Shown here one piece after another: positions 9,605 through 38,397 of a DNA stretch of 38,658 nt. The notes under the pieces were generated by a model that did not search any database, was not told where the DNA came from, and was given only the letters and a program-made list of their open reading frames with translations. The stretch lies in the NCBI GenBank assembly GCA_018609755.1, contig JAHENZ010000198.1, forward strand, positions 1 through 38,658. Reading direction: 5' to 3'. Numbering within the stretch: the first letter of the stretch is position 1; the number at the start of each line of letters is the position of its first letter. The stretch comes from Salinivenus sp. GTDB taxonomy: Bacteria > Bacteroidota > Rhodothermia > Rhodothermales > Salinibacteraceae. A program made the position numbers and the translations under genes.

Positions 9605-10081
9605 AAGCTATTCTACCGATACGTGAATACGTTTTTGAAATCCACTGTTGCTCACGGTTGTGTTCGGTCCCCATCTAATGCGGATTGACTTTCCCTTACT
9701 TTCTCACGGATCGGTAATTTCACACGCTGCAAAGCTGCCGGTGCGTGACGACTGCAGACGCGTCCATTCCAGCCGTGCGTTCAGATGCATGTGTTCCAGT
9801 TTGAGATACGGACTTGAAAAAGCGATCGCGAATGTGAAGGTAACCCTAAATTAAAACAGGTTCTTGGGCTTTCCGGGGCAATGTCGAGGGAAAGGAGAAA
9901 ACAGTACGGCAGGGAAGATTCACCAAATATCGATGGGGGAATGCGCGGAAAGCTTCAAAGAGGAGAGGAGGAACCCCCGATCTTGGAGGGTGCCTCTGCC
10001 GTGTGTACAGGTTCTACTTGTGTCCTCGTTTCGGATGGGGAAGGTGAGGTCCTACCACCTTATACTCTCAACTCTTCCATT
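9605..10081 (+). other. Region between PAS protein and histidine kinase
   Basis: These 477 bases hold no gene that I can support. A 68-codon frame at 9648-9854 has no recognisable features. The frame of the kinase is open back to 9881, but the translated stretch has no domain-like pattern and the kinase family start fits the ATG at 10082. The bases around 9838-9860 are AT-rich and may hold a promoter. Confidence 0.6.
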
Positions 10082-31770: not shown

Positions 31771-32321
31771 CACTTCCGCGAGCCGAAGGAGGCTCTTCGG
31801 GTGATCGATCTCATCGAGGCTCGGGCTCCTCGCGCGTTCGTGAGTGTGGAAGAGCTGCGGACGACGTATTGGGGGCGGTTCTGTCCGTCTGATCGCCGAC
31901 CGGCCCGACTGGTGCGGCGATAGGGGAGGCCGCTTGCTGCCCGTATCCGGAACGATGAGCGGTTCTGGTTACTCTTGCGTAGTTGAGGAAACGCACGCAT
32001 CCGACTGCCCCGTTGTTAAAAAATGATGGGCCCAACGCGTCGCAAGGTTTATTGCAGGTTCTCGTTGGGTAGGAGACCTACGGCAATCGCATCTTGCTTT
32101 CGGAACCGGGCGCGACTTCCAGTAGAGGCACGCTGGCCGCTCTCCCACACGCCCATACCCACAAACATTCCGGCGCAATCCGCCGGAGGAACGGGCAGGC
32201 GAGCCACCTGCACTCGACTGGAGCTTTAACATGCGATTGCCCTGGCAGGTGACCAAGAGAGTTGAAATGATTGAGGACGGAGCCCTACTTTTTGCCAGTC
32301 TCCTCTTCTGTAGCCCGACGG
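31771..32321. other. Noncoding region between the remnant and the first repeat element
   Basis: I see no gene in these 551 bases. It contains a C-rich low-complexity stretch near 32139-32165 (CCACACGCCCATACCCAC), similar in style to the C-rich arms elsewhere, and a stem-loop with arms TCCGGCG (32169-32175) and CGCCGGA (32181-32187). Parts upstream could be further decay of the barrel-protein gene. Confidence 0.55.
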
Positions 32322-32494
32322 TAGTGGGCTTGCACAACTGAAACGCGAGAAATCGCAGAGATCGTGACGTTGTTTCCGTCTGTATTTACTGTGCGGACTA
32401 TGCTCGGGATCGACCGCTGCCAGCAACCGCGGACGATTGTGGCGTCAGGGAACCGACGTTCGAAACCGCCAGAGTCGTTGTGCACGGTCAGTAG
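32322..32494. mobile_element. MITE-like element, copy 1 (173 bp)
   Basis: This 173-base stretch is repeated at 33244-33416 with about 18 mismatches and no gaps (about 90% identity, counted by eye). Its ends are imperfect inverted repeats: TAGTGGGCTTGCACAAC at the left against TACTGACCGTGCACAAC, the reverse complement of the right end (13 of 17 match). It encodes no transposase. The CTTGCACAAC core recalls the termini of some IS5-type insertion sequences, an unverified impression. Confidence 0.6.
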
Positions 32495-32645
32495 CCCCTA
32501 TACAGAATCGCGATCCGCTGAAGGAGGTACCCCCACTTTCCTTCGAGGGATCGCGTCTCCACCTTGATTCATTCGGAAACGTACCACGCTACTGTACTTC
32601 GTTACTCAAAGCCTCCGTCCTGAGTCCGGCCGACCGGCTAACCGA
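32495..32645 (+). other. Upstream region of the ECF sigma gene
   Basis: This 151-base leader lies between repeat copy 1 and the sigma start at 32646. It contains the purine-rich GAAGGAGG at about 32519-32526, which is too far from the start (about 120 bases) to be its ribosome-binding site. Any sigma promoter must lie here or inside the repeat element. No TAnnTTTG box was found. Confidence 0.45.
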
Positions 32646-33200
32646 ATGTCAACCTCCGATCGCGTTTCCCGAGACCAACGCTGGGCACAGCAGATCGCTG
32701 AAGGGAAGTACGAGGCCTTCGAATCCCTTTTCCGGGCCTACGCGTCGGATCTCTGCGACTTCGTCAACTCGTTTGTTGAGGCTCCGGACGTTGCGGAGAG
32801 CCTCGTGCAGGAGGTGTTTCTTACCATCTGGGAAGGGCGAGACTCCTGGACGCCCCCGGACAATGTCAAATCGTATTTGTACACCGCTGCTCGCAATAAG
32901 GCCCTCGACCATCTCGATCACGCGGAGATAACCGACGATTGGCGCGACGCCACCTCGTCGCAAGAACCCATTCGACGAACCCCCCTGGAGGAGCTTCACT
33001 ACGAAGAACTTCGGGAGGAGGTGGAGGCGGCCATACGACAGTTGCCTGAACGGCGCCGCCAGGTCTTTACACTAAGCCGGCAGCACGGCCTTACCTACCA
33101 GGAAATTGCGGACGTGCTCGACATCTCCATCAAGACCGTGGAGACGCAGATGACCCGTGCCCTAAAGGCGCTCAGGGAGGAACTGTCCGCGTATCTTTAA
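32646..33200 (+). CDS. ECF sigma-70 factor (FecI/RpoE-like)
   Basis: The product has 184 residues. Sigma region 2 covers about 20-90: FESLFRAYASDLCDFVNSFV, then the DVAESLVQEVFLTIWEGRDS segment that binds the -10 element, then VKSYLYTAARNKALDHL. Region 4 covers about 125-180: LPERRRQVFTLSRQHGLTYQ and IADVLDISIKTVETQMTRAL, a helix-turn-helix for the -35 element. There is no region 1 or 3, as in ECF sigmas. In Bacteroidota such factors sit beside a FecR-type anti-sigma gene and a SusC receptor, exactly as here. The sigma would turn on the uptake genes when the receptor signals. The ATG at 32646 starts the family sequence. It is flanked on both sides by copies of the 173-base element. Confidence 0.93.
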   Translation: MSTSDRVSRDQRWAQQIAEGKYEAFESLFRAYASDLCDFVNSFVEAPDVAESLVQEVFLTIWEGRDSWTPPDNVKSYLYTAARNKALDHLDHAEITDDWRDATSSQEPIRRTPLEELHYEELREEVEAAIRQLPERRRQVFTLSRQHGLTYQEIADVLDISIKTVETQMTRALKALREELSAYL

Positions 33201-33719
33201 CCAGGGGCGGGGGATAAACGGTTGTTGCTTTCCGCTCGACTGCTAGTGGGCTTGCACAACTGAAACGCGAGAAATCGCAGAGATCGTGAGGCTGTCTCCG
33301 TCTGTCTCTCCTGCGGGGAATATGCTCGGGATCGACCGCTGCCGGCAAGCGGGGACGATTGTGGCGTCAGGGGACCGACGCTCAAAACCGACAGAGTCGT
33401 CGTGCAAGGTCAGTAGCGTCCGATAGGTCTTCAAATCAAGGAGCGCGCGAATCGTGGGTATTTCCCAGCGTTTCGGCGGCATCGTGCGTGATTCTGTCCG
33501 TCTGGAATTAGCCTGAGCCAAAGGCGCTTCGGTTTTGAACATTGGCTCGTTTGGAGATTCTGCCCCTGGTTTATTACGCCTTCACCCTTTCTTCGTCGTT
33601 TCTCCACCTCAGGTCGGATTTTTCTGTAGGGGGATTCCGGATCTGAGTCGTCTTAAGAGTGAGAGCAAAATTGAAAAGGGGCCGCGTTTATTTTTCGCGC
33701 GCAATCACGCTCACTGGAC
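33201..33719. other. 519-base gap between sigma and anti-sigma genes, holding repeat copy 2
   Basis: Sigma and FecR genes are normally a few bases apart. Here repeat copy 2 occupies 33244-33416, and 303 bases of noncoding DNA follow. A minus-strand frame across 33243-33542 runs through the repeat and has no family features. The last 40 bases before FecR are AT-rich (TTGAAAAGG, TTTATTTTTCG) and may provide a promoter for fecR. Confidence 0.6.
33244..33416. mobile_element. MITE-like element, copy 2 (173 bp)
   Basis: This is a direct repeat of the element at 32322-32494 with the same length and orientation. The terminal inverted repeats are TAGTGGGCTTGCACAAC and TACTGACCTTGCACGAC (13 of 17 match). 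The first 46 bases are identical between copies and most changes lie in the middle. TAG occurs at both outer ends of both copies, either as part of the element or as a short target duplication. Confidence 0.6.
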
Positions 33720-34781
33720 ATGCCGGACGGCATCGACGACGAACTTCTATTCCGTTACTTCGCGGACGAGTGCAGTCCCGAGGAGGAAGCGGCTGTGGAG
33801 GAATGGGTCGCAGAGGCGGAGCCTCATCGGGATCACTTTGAGGAAATGCGTCGGCTCTGGACGCTGACCGAGCGTTCGGCATCGAACTGGGAGGTCGATC
33901 GCATGTGGGCGTCGCTGTCCAACCGGATTCAGGAGGAGAATGGATCCTCCGAAGGGCGAAAGGAGCGACGGGCTCGCGACCCCAAGCGGCGTCGCAAACG
34001 ACCGTCCTGGCAGATGGGGGCTCGCGCTGCAGCCGGTCTCGTGGTGGCTGTCGTGATTGCAACCGTCTCCTGGTTTGTGTTTTCCTCCGGGCCGCAGTCG
34101 CCGTCTGGTGAAACTGCCCAGGCGGAAGCACAGACGTACCACACGGACGAGGGCGAGCGAGCGCGCGTTCAGCTGAGTGACGGGTCGCAGGTTGTGCTCA
34201 ATGCCAAGAGCCGGCTCACCGTTCAACCATTCACCGACAGTACGCGAGACGTATCGCTTGAGGGAGAAGCGTTGTTCACGGTCAGCAAAGATCGAGACCG
34301 GCCCTTCCGGGTGCGCGCTGATGGGAGCGTCACGCGTGTACTTGGTACCGTCTTCTCCGTTGCGGCCTACCCCGGCGAAGATACGGTCGACGTCGTGGTG
34401 GCAGAGGGAAAAGTTCAGCTTCGGTCCGAACGTGCCCAGAGGGGAGTGGATCTGACCGCCCGAGAGCGCGGCCGGCTTGCTGCCCGGGATACGTTGGCCA
34501 CAGAAGACGTAGTGGATCCGACACAGTTTCTGGCCTGGACCGAGGGGCGACTGGTATTCCGAGACGCTCCCTTTCACGAAGTGGCGCGGCGACTGGGGCG
34601 CCAGTACGGACTTGAGGTGCAAAAGGCGGACCCCTCGCTTCGGGTCGATCGCCTCAACGCCACCTTCAGCACCGACCAGTCCGCCTCTGAAGTTCTGAGC
34701 ATCGTTGCGCGAACCCTTTCCCTGGAGTACAGCCGAGAGGAAAAGACTGTCACCTTCTCCCGAGAATCCTCTTCCGGCTGA
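33720..34781 (+). CDS. FecR-type anti-sigma factor
   Basis: The product has 353 residues. The cytoplasmic N-terminal domain (about 1-95) binds the sigma factor: DELLFRYFADECSPEEEAAV and EWVAEAEPHRDHFEEMRRLW. A basic stretch (KRRRKRPSW) precedes one membrane helix (about 101-122). The periplasmic FecR domain (about 137-240) includes VQLSDGSQVVLNAKSRLTVQ, DVSLEGEALFTVSKDRDRPF and TRVLGTVFSVAAYPGEDTVD. A DUF4974-like C-terminal domain (about 268-350) starts FLAWTEGRLVFRDAPFHEVA. It receives the signal from the STN domain of the SusC-type receptor and releases the sigma factor. Start ATG at 33720. It lies 82 bases before the receptor gene. Confidence 0.93.
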   Translation: MPDGIDDELLFRYFADECSPEEEAAVEEWVAEAEPHRDHFEEMRRLWTLTERSASNWEVDRMWASLSNRIQEENGSSEGRKERRARDPKRRRKRPSWQMGARAAAGLVVAVVIATVSWFVFSSGPQSPSGETAQAEAQTYHTDEGERARVQLSDGSQVVLNAKSRLTVQPFTDSTRDVSLEGEALFTVSKDRDRPFRVRADGSVTRVLGTVFSVAAYPGEDTVDVVVAEGKVQLRSERAQRGVDLTARERGRLAARDTLATEDVVDPTQFLAWTEGRLVFRDAPFHEVARRLGRQYGLEVQKADPSLRVDRLNATFSTDQSASEVLSIVARTLSLEYSREEKTVTFSRESSSG

Positions 34782-34863: not shown

Positions 34864-37800
34864 ATGTATCGATTCTATACGTCTTCGTCACCTGATTCGA
34901 GTTCGGAAGCGTTTGCAGTTTCCGGTGCGGTGGCCCTACTGATGCTGAGTTTCGGCCTTCTCGTGCCTGTTCAGACAGTTCTCGGCCAGACGCAACCGGT
35001 TACAGAAACTGCCGAGCGCGTGTTGGCGGAGCATCAGCCGATGGATCGGACTGCGGAGCACCAGCCTCCGGCCGACGAGTCCGACGGTCATTCGAATTCT
35101 GCTCTCGACCGCACCATCCACCTGAACATTTCGGATGCGACGGTGGAACAGGCGCTTCGCCAAGTGGCCCAGAAGGCCGGTATGCGGCTGTCGTACGGGA
35201 GTGGGACGATACAGCCGTCCGCTCGGCTCGTCACCATTCAGGATCAGCAGATGACGGCGGGCCAGGCCCTCCGTCACATTCTGGAGGGGATGAACGTGCG
35301 GATTCTTCCGTATGGAAGTCGGCAGGTGATCCTTGCGGAGGGGAACGCGGGGCAAGGGCAGAAAACGGAAGACGCATCGGGCCTCGTTGACCTCCGGAAG
35401 GCCCAGCTGGTGTCCATGCAGAAACAGGAGGGCACCATTCGAGGCCAGGTAACGGACGCCAAAAGCGGAGAGCCCCTTCCCGGAGTGAACGTCATTATTG
35501 CCGGTACGCAGCAGGGGACGGCCACGAATGCGCAGGGAGAGTACACCATTGAAGGCGTGAGTGCGGGGACGTACGACCTCCGCGCCTCCTTTATTGGGTA
35601 CGAGACGCGCCGCAAAGAGGGGATCACGGTGAACGCCGAGGAGACGACCGTCGTCAATTTCTCGATGGAGACGAAGGCCGAGTCCCTCGATGAGATCGTC
35701 GTAGTCGGCTACGGCGAGCAGCAGCAGCGGGACGTGACCGGCGTCGTGAATAACGTGAGCAGCGAAGACTTCAGCAAGGCGCCGGCCGTGAGCCCCGATC
35801 GGCTCCTGCAGGGCAAGGTGGCCGGGGTGCAAATCCAGTCCAATTCTGGACGTCCGGGTGGGCAATCCTTCATCCGGATTCGCGGAGGGACCTCAGTGAA
35901 TGCGAGCAATCGCCCGCTCTTCGTGGTGGATGGCGTTCCCCTCAACGATTCGCCCCACAGTCCGGGCGGCCTGTCAGAGGGACGGAATCCGTTGAATTTC
36001 CTGAATCCCAATGACATCAAGGACATCACCGTGCTCAAGGACGCCTCTGCGGCGGCCATCTACGGCGCCCGGGGGGCAAACGGCGTCGTGCTCATTACGA
36101 CCAAGCAGGGGGGGAGTGAGGAGCAGGTTTCGTACGAGGGCTCCGTCTCGTCCACGAATGCCGTGGATACCCGCGACGTTTTGAGTGCACAGCAGTTTCG
36201 GGACGTGGTAGGAGAGCGGTTTCCGGACAAAGTGAGTGCGCTCGGCGATGCGAACACGGACTGGCAAGATGCTGTGCTCGAACAAGCCCTAGGCCAGCAG
36301 CACTCGGTGAGCTTTTCCGGAGGATCGGCGTCGGGGGAGCAGTTTCGGTTCTCTCTCGGGTATCAGAGTGAGGAAGGCGTGGTGCGGACCTCCCGGACGC
36401 AGCGGACGAGCCTGTCGGCCAAATACACGCGGCCGTTCCTCGACGACCGGCTGACGCTGGACGCGAATCTTCGGGGCTCGAAGACGAATGATCAGTTTGC
36501 CCCGAGTGTGATTGAAACGGCGACGAGCTTCGCGCCGACCCAGCCCATCCGGGATGCGTCCAACGAACGCACGGGCTATTTTGAATGGACTGGGTTTTCT
36601 GATCTCTCGGAAAACAATCCGGTCGCTACGATTGACCTCACGGACGAAACCGGAGATTCGTACCGGAGCGTCGGGAACGTAGAGTTTGAGTACGAGCCGA
36701 CGTTCGTCGACGGCCTGAGTGCCGCGGCCAACCTGGGGTACGACGTGTCGAGCGGTGAGCGTGAGCGCTTCCTGCCGACCAATCTGCAGAGTCAGGTGGA
36801 AAGCGACAAGCCCGGACAGGTCGATCGGGCCAACTTCACGCGGCTCACGAAGCTTCTGGACCTCACGCTCAACTACCAGAATCGCTTTGATGAAATCGAC
36901 AGCCGAGTCAACCTCACCGCAGGGTACTCCTACCAGGACTCCGACGAGAAGTATCCGGAGATTACGGCCCAGGGCCTCGCAACGAACGTGTTGGAATCCA
37001 ACAGCACGTTGCCGGCCAGCGACGTCAGCTCGTTCGTCAGTGAAGTGCCGAATCGCTTGATCTCAACGTTTGGGCGGGTCAACTACACCCTGAAGGGCCG
37101 GTACGTGGCCACGGCGACCGTCCGGCGAGACGGATCCTCCCGGTTCGCACCGTCCAACCGCTGGGGCGTCTTTCCGTCCGCGGCCCTTGCGTGGCGCATT
37201 CACAATGAGCCGTTCATGGAGCCGGTGTCCGATGTGCTGTCGGCCCTGAAGCTCCGCGGGTCGTGGGGCGTCACGGGAAATCAGGAGATCGGCGATTTCC
37301 TCTACGCGAAGACGTACCAGTTCAGCAATGAGCACGGCCGCGTCCAGTTTGGCGACAATTTCGTCACCACGATTCGTCCGAGTGCGGTCGATCCCAATTT
37401 GAAGTGGGAGGAGACCACGTCCGTGAACGTGGGCCTGGATTATGGGCTGTTCGGAGGGCGGCTTTCCGGGGCCATTAACTACTACCGGAAGACCACGAAC
37501 GACCTGCTCTTCGAGACTACGGTACCGGCCGGGGGAAATCTCTCCGACCTCGTACTCACGAATGTCGGGTCGGTGCGGAATACGGGCATCGAATTCGACC
37601 TCAACGCGGCGGTGGTGCAACAGGACGAGTTTTCCTACAACGCGCAGTTCAACGCGTCCACCAACGACAACACGCTCTTGAAGCTGACGGACACGCCGGG
37701 TGCAGGGTCGCAGGGCATTCTTACCGGGAATATCACCGGGGGCGTGGGCAACCGCGTCCAGATTCTCAAAGAGGGAGAGCCGGTAAACTCCTTCTACGTG

Positions 37801-38397
37801 TTCCGTCACAAGACGAACGACCAGGGCAAACCGCTCACGGACGGGGAAGACCACAACGGCGACGGGACGGTCAATCTCGCGGACATGTACGAGGACACCA
37901 ACGGCGACGGAGTCGTGAATGACGAGGACAAGGTGGCCACCAAGAGCCCGCAGCCGAACTGGACGTTCGGGCACACCTCGCAGGTGCGCTACGGGGGCTT
38001 TGACCTGAGCGCCTCCGTCCGCGCGCAGCTTGGAAACTACGTGTACAACAACATTAGCTCGAATTTCGGGACGTACAACCGAATTCGAGAGTTTTCCCCG
38101 ACGAATCTCCAGGAGAGTGTGCTGGAGACGAATTTCGACCAGCCGCAGTACTTCTCCGACTACTACGTCGAGGACGCGTCCTTCCTGCGAATGGACAACG
38201 TCACGCTCGGATACAGCTTCGACGGACTCGCCGGGGTTGATCGCCTCCGCGTGTATGGAAGCGTGAGCAATGTTTTCGTGATCACCGGCTACAGTGGCCC
38301 GGAGCCGGAGATTGGAAACACCACCGGTGTCGGGATCGACAACGACGTCTTTCCCCGAACACGAACGTTCACTGGTGGGCTCAACCTTCAGTTCTAA
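34864..38397 (+). CDS. SusC/RagA-type TonB-dependent receptor with STN signalling domain
   Basis: The product has 1177 residues. A long, weak signal region with hydrophobic core VALLMLSFGLL (about 22-41) is followed by a linker and an STN (secretin/TonB N-terminus) domain at about 82-157 (IHLNISDATVEQALRQVAQK). A CarboxypepD_reg-like domain at about 192-255 (GQVTDAKSGEPLPGVNVIIA) precedes SLDEIVVVGYGEQQQRDVTG, the SusC plug signature. The plug (about 285-415) contains DASAAAIYGARGANGVVLIT. A 22-strand-type barrel follows to the end (GGLNLQF, C-terminal Phe). The STN domain marks it as a signal transducer for the upstream FecR. It imports an oligomer, probably glycan or peptide; the substrate is unknown. 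Start ATG at 34864; a TTG at 34843 is less likely. Confidence 0.95.
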   Translation: MYRFYTSSSPDSSSEAFAVSGAVALLMLSFGLLVPVQTVLGQTQPVTETAERVLAEHQPMDRTAEHQPPADESDGHSNSALDRTIHLNISDATVEQALRQVAQKAGMRLSYGSGTIQPSARLVTIQDQQMTAGQALRHILEGMNVRILPYGSRQVILAEGNAGQGQKTEDASGLVDLRKAQLVSMQKQEGTIRGQVTDAKSGEPLPGVNVIIAGTQQGTATNAQGEYTIEGVSAGTYDLRASFIGYETRRKEGITVNAEETTVVNFSMETKAESLDEIVVVGYGEQQQRDVTGVVNNVSSEDFSKAPAVSPDRLLQGKVAGVQIQSNSGRPGGQSFIRIRGGTSVNASNRPLFVVDGVPLNDSPHSPGGLSEGRNPLNFLNPNDIKDITVLKDASAAAIYGARGANGVVLITTKQGGSEEQVSYEGSVSSTNAVDTRDVLSAQQFRDVVGERFPDKVSALGDANTDWQDAVLEQALGQQHSVSFSGGSASGEQFRFSLGYQSEEGVVRTSRTQRTSLSAKYTRPFLDDRLTLDANLRGSKTNDQFAPSVIETATSFAPTQPIRDASNERTGYFEWTGFSDLSENNPVATIDLTDETGDSYRSVGNVEFEYEPTFVDGLSAAANLGYDVSSGERERFLPTNLQSQVESDKPGQVDRANFTRLTKLLDLTLNYQNRFDEIDSRVNLTAGYSYQDSDEKYPEITAQGLATNVLESNSTLPASDVSSFVSEVPNRLISTFGRVNYTLKGRYVATATVRRDGSSRFAPSNRWGVFPSAALAWRIHNEPFMEPVSDVLSALKLRGSWGVTGNQEIGDFLYAKTYQFSNEHGRVQFGDNFVTTIRPSAVDPNLKWEETTSVNVGLDYGLFGGRLSGAINYYRKTTNDLLFETTVPAGGNLSDLVLTNVGSVRNTGIEFDLNAAVVQQDEFSYNAQFNASTNDNTLLKLTDTPGAGSQGILTGNITGGVGNRVQILKEGEPVNSFYVFRHKTNDQGKPLTDGEDHNGDGTVNLADMYEDTNGDGVVNDEDKVATKSPQPNWTFGHTSQVRYGGFDLSASVRAQLGNYVYNNISSNFGTYNRIREFSPTNLQESVLETNFDQPQYFSDYYVEDASFLRMDNVTLGYSFDGLAGVDRLRVYGSVSNVFVITGYSGPEPEIGNTTGVGIDNDVFPRTRTFTGGLNLQF

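Follow-up and report, generated by a model that had tools for sequence, protein, structure and literature searches.

Two repeats flanking an ECF sigma factor gene in a Salinivenus genome are, in all probability, independent insertions of a TA-targeted MITE family

Background

The question raised by this locus is whether two short repeats bracketing a gene for an ECF sigma factor had a part in bringing that gene to its place or in its expression, or are mobile sequences that settled beside it. The gene in question (32646-33200, plus strand; Pfam Sigma70_r4_2, 1.5e-20, and Sigma70_r2, 1.8e-11) lies in the window analysed here, namely, the whole 38,658-nucleotide stretch that represents contig 198 in the 5.0-Mb, 328-contig assembly of Salinivenus sp. 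It is followed, 519 bp after its stop codon, by a FecR-type anti-sigma gene (33720-34781, plus strand; Pfam FecR, 6.6e-20, and FecR_C, 1.3e-14), and a TonB-dependent outer-membrane receptor gene with carboxypeptidase-regulatory-like, plug and barrel domains (34864-38397, plus strand) completes the locus. The first repeat (copy 1; 32322-32494, plus strand) precedes the sigma gene by about 152 bp, and the second (copy 2; 33244-33416, plus strand) follows its stop codon at a distance of 43 bp. A previous, sequence-only reading had described two 173-bp copies in the same orientation, about 90% identical, one upstream of the sigma gene and the other between it and its anti-sigma partner; this description holds, including the identity of the two genes, with 155 of the 173 positions identical between the copies.

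We find that the repeats belong to a dispersed family, and our explanation, which we hold with high confidence, is that a non-autonomous DNA transposon (MITE) inserted twice, independently, at this locus; its source most likely was of the IS630/Tc1-mariner type.

A dispersed family of TA-flanked elements

The two copies are direct repeats, 922 bp apart, and the similarity between them stops at both edges. The element proper spans 32324-32491 in copy 1, with flanking TA dinucleotides at 32322-32323 and 32492-32493, and 33246-33413 in copy 2, with TA at 33244-33245 and 33414-33415. Both begin with the left terminal inverted repeat (TIR) GTGGGCTTGCACAAC (32324-32338 and 33246-33260, plus strand), and the 17-base left end is found more than 150 times in the genome. 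In the right TIRs (32477-32491 and 33399-33413, minus strand), the 15 bases adjoining the TA on its inner side read, as the reverse complement, CTGACCGTGCACAAC for copy 1 and CTGACCTTGCACGAC for copy 2, compared with GTGGGCTTGCACAAC for the left arm. The TIR core, CTTGCACAAC, is unbroken at the left end of both copies and contains a single mismatch at the right end of each (GTGCACGG for GTGCAAGG in copy 1, GTCGTGCAAGG in copy 2), and over 20 bases the left and right arms match at 11 positions only. Imperfect as they are, the inverted repeats noticed in the sequence-only reading are real: the 17-base left end, with up to two mismatches, has 80 + 71 matches in the genome versus 0 + 1 for a reversed control pattern, and a pattern that fits both ends has 85 + 89 matches (174) versus none in the control.

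When copy 1 was used as a query against its own genome, 131 first-look candidates were obtained, and all 40 of those that were scored were significant. The loci of this family, hereinafter family A, were taken from approximately 100 stretches (1.52 Mb) picked for holding the ends. They number 97, of which 71 have a length of 150 bp or more; given the choice of stretches, this is a lower bound on the copy number, and the densities are not genome-wide. Search of the genome with the 173-base repeat and alignment of the copies, the check proposed in the sequence-only reading, thus reveal a dispersed family with TA-flanked ends. That reading had taken the repeats for MITE-like mobile sequences, with local duplication as the alternative should the genome hold no other copies; it holds about 100. 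In an alignment of 70 full copies of family A and seven copies of a second family (family B), the family-A consensus is bounded by TA on both sides, with GTGGGCTTGCACAAC at the beginning and GTTGTGCAAGGTCAC at the end; its TIRs, GTGGGCTTGCACAAC and GTGACCTTGCACAAC, match at 13 of 15 positions, and the termini of the element can also be written TAGTGGGCTTGCACAAC and TAGTGACCTTGCACAAC. The longest open reading frame of the consensus is about 56 codons, and at 168-173 bp the element is too short for a transposase gene. Small size without a transposase gene, TIRs, dispersal at high copy number and shared ends are all features of family A, which accordingly fits the set of features of bacterial MITEs as reviewed (PMC10969869, PMC2229807). 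Seven contigs (C50, C110, C112, C169, C233, C241 and C263) end within or beside family-A copies, so the family probably fragments the assembly.

The flanks of the copies point to the target. The commonest state is CTAG on both sides (34 of 76 copies); the T of position 2 is present at both flanks in 67 of the 76, and the A of position 3 in 61. The outer base is mostly C or T before the left TA and mostly G or A after the right TA, so that the target resembles YTAR/CTAG. There is also covariation between the right-terminal base and the base that precedes the left TA: the G/G combination is found in 5 of 8 cases versus 2 of 68 (P = 6e-5). Duplication of the 2-bp TA accounts for most of the flank data, and the G/G covariation would suit a 3-bp duplication, so we put the duplicated target at 2-3 bp. 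A search for the paired flanks within the same genome yielded tandem junctions with another family only (see below). With identities of only 74-81%, the congeners yielded no empty site that is exact to the base; in the comparison with one of them (G009) at L054:6021-6189, the MITE is absent but the adjacent sequence differs too, so the correspondence is imprecise.

Family A is not alone: TA-targeted MITEs are common in this genome and comprise at least four families. The seven full copies of family B (L067:14736-14908 and others on L088, L103, L104, L106, L059 and L086) are also about 173 bp long and have approximately 20 bp in common with family A at each end, but in their interiors the two families are not convincingly similar (best match 10 bp, E 0.02); the combination of the same ends with unlike interiors indicates mobilisation in trans. 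Family D, with 35 copies, measures 122 bp between the flanks, starts with TA followed by GTGGTCAGTCAAG, and lacks the G/G covariation pattern of family A. Family E is about 100 bp long with ends CCGATCCGTGA; most of its copies are cleanly flanked by TA at either end, and therefore TA-targeting transposition does occur in this genome; a copy of about 100 bp, with ends CCGATCCGTGA and TCACGGATCGG, is present in the window at 9616-9714.

These families also form compounds. Families D and A are joined, in the same order, at four loci (L118:614-800, L071, L062 and L085), and either the CTAG at the edge of a MITE is a favoured target or D and A move as one unit. Element E occupies one and the same internal position of family A at eight loci (L078:5724, L092:55, L097, L098:3395, L099:1953, L105, L214 and L230), and the resulting compound form, about 275 bp in length, is found also in a congener, G008 (L206). 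With E at the same internal place in both genomes, family A either predates their divergence or has passed between them.

The distribution of family A is otherwise narrow. Among 12 congeners, it was detected in G008 only, at approximately 70-74% identity, and among 244 class-level genomes, a divergent version with paired ends was likewise seen in this one congener only. The exact ends occur in eight contigs among 85,000 GTDB genomes, with a paired end only in G008, and searches of plasmids, phages and viral contigs gave no family-A matches. At the G008 loci L205, L206 and L208, the left end is longer and includes a small internal palindrome (TTGCACAGCTAGGCTGTGCGGCACAAC). A literature search for MITEs of Salinibacter found no description.

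Search for an autonomous partner

The sequence-only reading had suggested a search for an insertion sequence (IS) with matching termini; the search was carried out, and no such element turned up. Specifically, there is no full-length IS with family-A ends in the 1.52 Mb examined or among the listed genome-wide exact-end positions, no transposase between paired family-A ends in the 1.52 Mb, and no partner in the other GTDB contigs or the 244 class-level genomes. The three DDE_3 (IS630-type) loci of this genome (on C84, C236 and C211) and its seven DDE_Tnp_1 loci are all without family-A ends. A candidate 1.7-kb element with family-A ends on L064 was rejected; judging from its protein reading, it appears to be an IS110-like gene near a MITE fragment. 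The fragmented assembly would lose precisely such an active, high-copy IS.

The closest approach to a source is a degenerate IS630-type element of 1229 bp (L043:858-2086) with ends TAGTACCGCGTCAG and TA at both ends. It shares with families A, B and D a start in which the TA is followed by GT, a layout that makes an IS630-type source plausible without proving it. We therefore favour such a source but do not claim membership in the IS630 group, because no IS630 element in the sequence examined has family-A ends. The family-A transposase might, alternatively, have belonged to the IS5 group (IS427-like, with a TA target) rather than to IS630/Tc1-mariner. Elements of the IS5 group are able to duplicate TA or CTAG as well, and the seven DDE_Tnp_1 loci are compatible with this origin; but the start shared with three of the MITE families belongs to the degenerate IS630-type element, and neither group carries family-A ends. 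An IS5-group source thus seems possible, if rather doubtful, and the IS630/Tc1-mariner type is the one that we retain.

Genomic position and the possibility of a role

Genes were called with a simple codon-usage caller of our own, which designated 78% of the sequence as coding. Overlap with a gene call exceeds 60 bp in none of the 71 full copies, with the proviso that the caller may fail to call genes through an insertion, and all classifiable copies are intergenic. For the 66 intergenic copies that were classified, we counted 27 copy edges at a distance of at most 50 bp from a gene 3' end, versus 11.7 +/- 3.3 expected, and 7 equally close to a 5' end, versus 12.2 expected; the orientation relative to the upstream gene is evenly divided (16:16). 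Copy 2, 43 bp behind the sigma stop codon, is typical of family-A placement. The enrichment near 3' ends may be the outcome of selection against harmful insertions or may reflect a target preference.

This placement invites the idea that the copies have been co-opted, copy 1 as part of the promoter region of the sigma gene and copy 2 as a spacer, a site of processing or an attenuator between the sigma and fecR genes. Such roles are on record for Correia elements and ERIC (PMC10969869), and both the positions of the copies, 152 bp before the sigma gene and 43 bp behind its stop codon, and the family-wide enrichment near gene 3' ends would fit. The searches for promoters, terminators and RNA folds, however, provided no positive evidence of a regulatory role of the copies at the sigma locus. 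The proposal of the sequence-only reading that the repeats supply promoters found no backing: there is no match in 32000-34000 to a model of sigma-70-like, as distinct from Rhodothermota/Bacteroidota-type, promoters. The covariation term that RNAalifold returned for family A was -0.12 kcal/mol, and double changes were seen in 2 of 39 pairs; this is negligible support, and we rejected a structured RNA or riboregulator function for this reason; the only Rfam match in the window is a tRNA. The terminator-like matches inside the copies are weak and on the minus strand. Moreover, both copies have diverged as ordinary family members do, and the 3'-end enrichment is equally expected from selection against insertions on the promoter side. 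We consider co-option unlikely. Less likely still is a broader variant in which a lineage-specific burst placed copies behind stop codons as a shared 3'-UTR or spacer that reset the ratio of upstream to downstream gene expression, in this case, that of the ECF sigma factor to FecR. In our preferred explanation, namely, insertion of MITEs that persist where they do no harm, the copies probably have no function at this locus.

Neither did copy 2 break up a tight operon, as the sequence-only reading had envisaged. It contributes about 170 bp of the 519 bp between the sigma and fecR genes, a gap that would be about 349 bp without it, and in the two closest paralogous sigma-fecR pairs of the same genome the gaps are 158 bp (C307) and 516 bp (C58). 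The 516-bp gap contains no family-A copy; a different, unrelated dispersed repeat is found there (L127:5304-5521). Among more distant sigma-fecR pairs, from the congeners and in some cases from this genome, close spacing or overlap prevails (-40 to 282 bp), and one pair is an outlier at 933 bp. Given that the nearest paralogous pairs are loosely spaced, the MITE enlarged a gap that was already there.

Relationships between the copies

The 70 copies of family A have a mean pairwise identity of 89% and a mean distance to the consensus of 6.2%, compared with 6.9% for copy 1 and 7.5% for copy 2. Their tree is star-like, with long tips and only one well-supported branch among 67 inner branches. In the order of closeness, the two window copies rank 22 and 25 to each other, that is, each has at least 21 closer relatives elsewhere. 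The 90% identity between them, which had been read as the mark of an old duplication, is merely the family average, and since the copies are not sisters, two independent insertions are indicated.

The same data bear on the view that the two copies are the ends of a composite transposon that brought the sigma gene in. They do directly flank the gene, and compound units evidently can spread, given that the D-A junction recurs at four loci and A with an inserted E at eight. Nevertheless, the sigma gene and its flanks occur only once in the genome, the flanking copies are not sisters, and the gene resides in a normal sigma-fecR-receptor context, as do its paralogues. The suggestion that the repeats mobilised the sigma gene is therefore very improbable. 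Local segmental duplication of the first copy beside itself, with no mobile element involved, might be read from the 922-bp distance and the common orientation but was rejected as extremely improbable, in view of the genome-wide copies (about 100 elsewhere), the similarity that ends exactly at the TA-flanked ends with no match beyond the 173 bases, and the at least 21 nearer relatives of each copy in the tree.

Proposed mechanism and comparison with known systems

The course of events that we envisage under independent MITE insertion is the following. The family-A unit, about 168 bp between imperfect TIRs and without a transposase gene, would have been moved by a transposase encoded elsewhere that bound the shared ends and inserted the element into the TA of CTAG-like (YTAR) sites. 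The source IS, most likely of the IS630/Tc1-mariner type, may since have been lost or may be absent from the assembly. A single burst probably raised the family to about 100 copies, followed by decay (approximately 6% divergence per copy), and the copies would have persisted where harmless, that is, between genes, chiefly just behind gene 3' ends.

The finding accounts for the repeats, which can no longer serve as evidence for a mobile sigma gene, while leaving the understanding of sigma regulation unchanged. It also puts on record that MITEs have expanded in a Salinibacter-like genome, where the TA-targeted families number at least four. With several contigs ending at its copies, family A is relevant to the assembly or typing of this lineage, and it offers a test case for MITEs that outlive their own transposase.

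Family A is a new MITE family of an already known kind, with clear precedents among bacteria. The nearest in behaviour is RUP of Streptococcus pneumoniae, a 107-bp element with about 108 intergenic copies, TIRs and a TA target, for which mobilisation in trans by an IS630-type transposase, that of IS630-Spn1, has been proposed (PMC2229807). Both are short and intergenic, with TIRs, a TA target and about 100 copies; family A, however, is longer (168-173 bp), is unrelated in sequence, resides in a halophilic Salinibacter-like host, has no autonomous IS with matching ends that could be found, and has copies that appear more diverged. Another case is the Correia/NEMIS elements of Neisseria, with more than 120 copies in N. 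gonorrhoeae, which are approximately 100-200 bp long, have TIRs ending at TA and lie mostly near genes (PMC10969869, PMC2229807). By contrast with these, family A has no sigma-70-like promoter match and no RNA covariation, and no sequence relation was noted; furthermore, Correia elements are often situated immediately upstream of a gene, while the enrichment of family A is near gene 3' ends. Finally, compared with the IS630/Tc1-mariner elements themselves, family A contains no transposase gene and its TIR differs from those IS630 ends that can be determined in this genome, but the two have in common the TA at both ends and the YTAR-like target preference.
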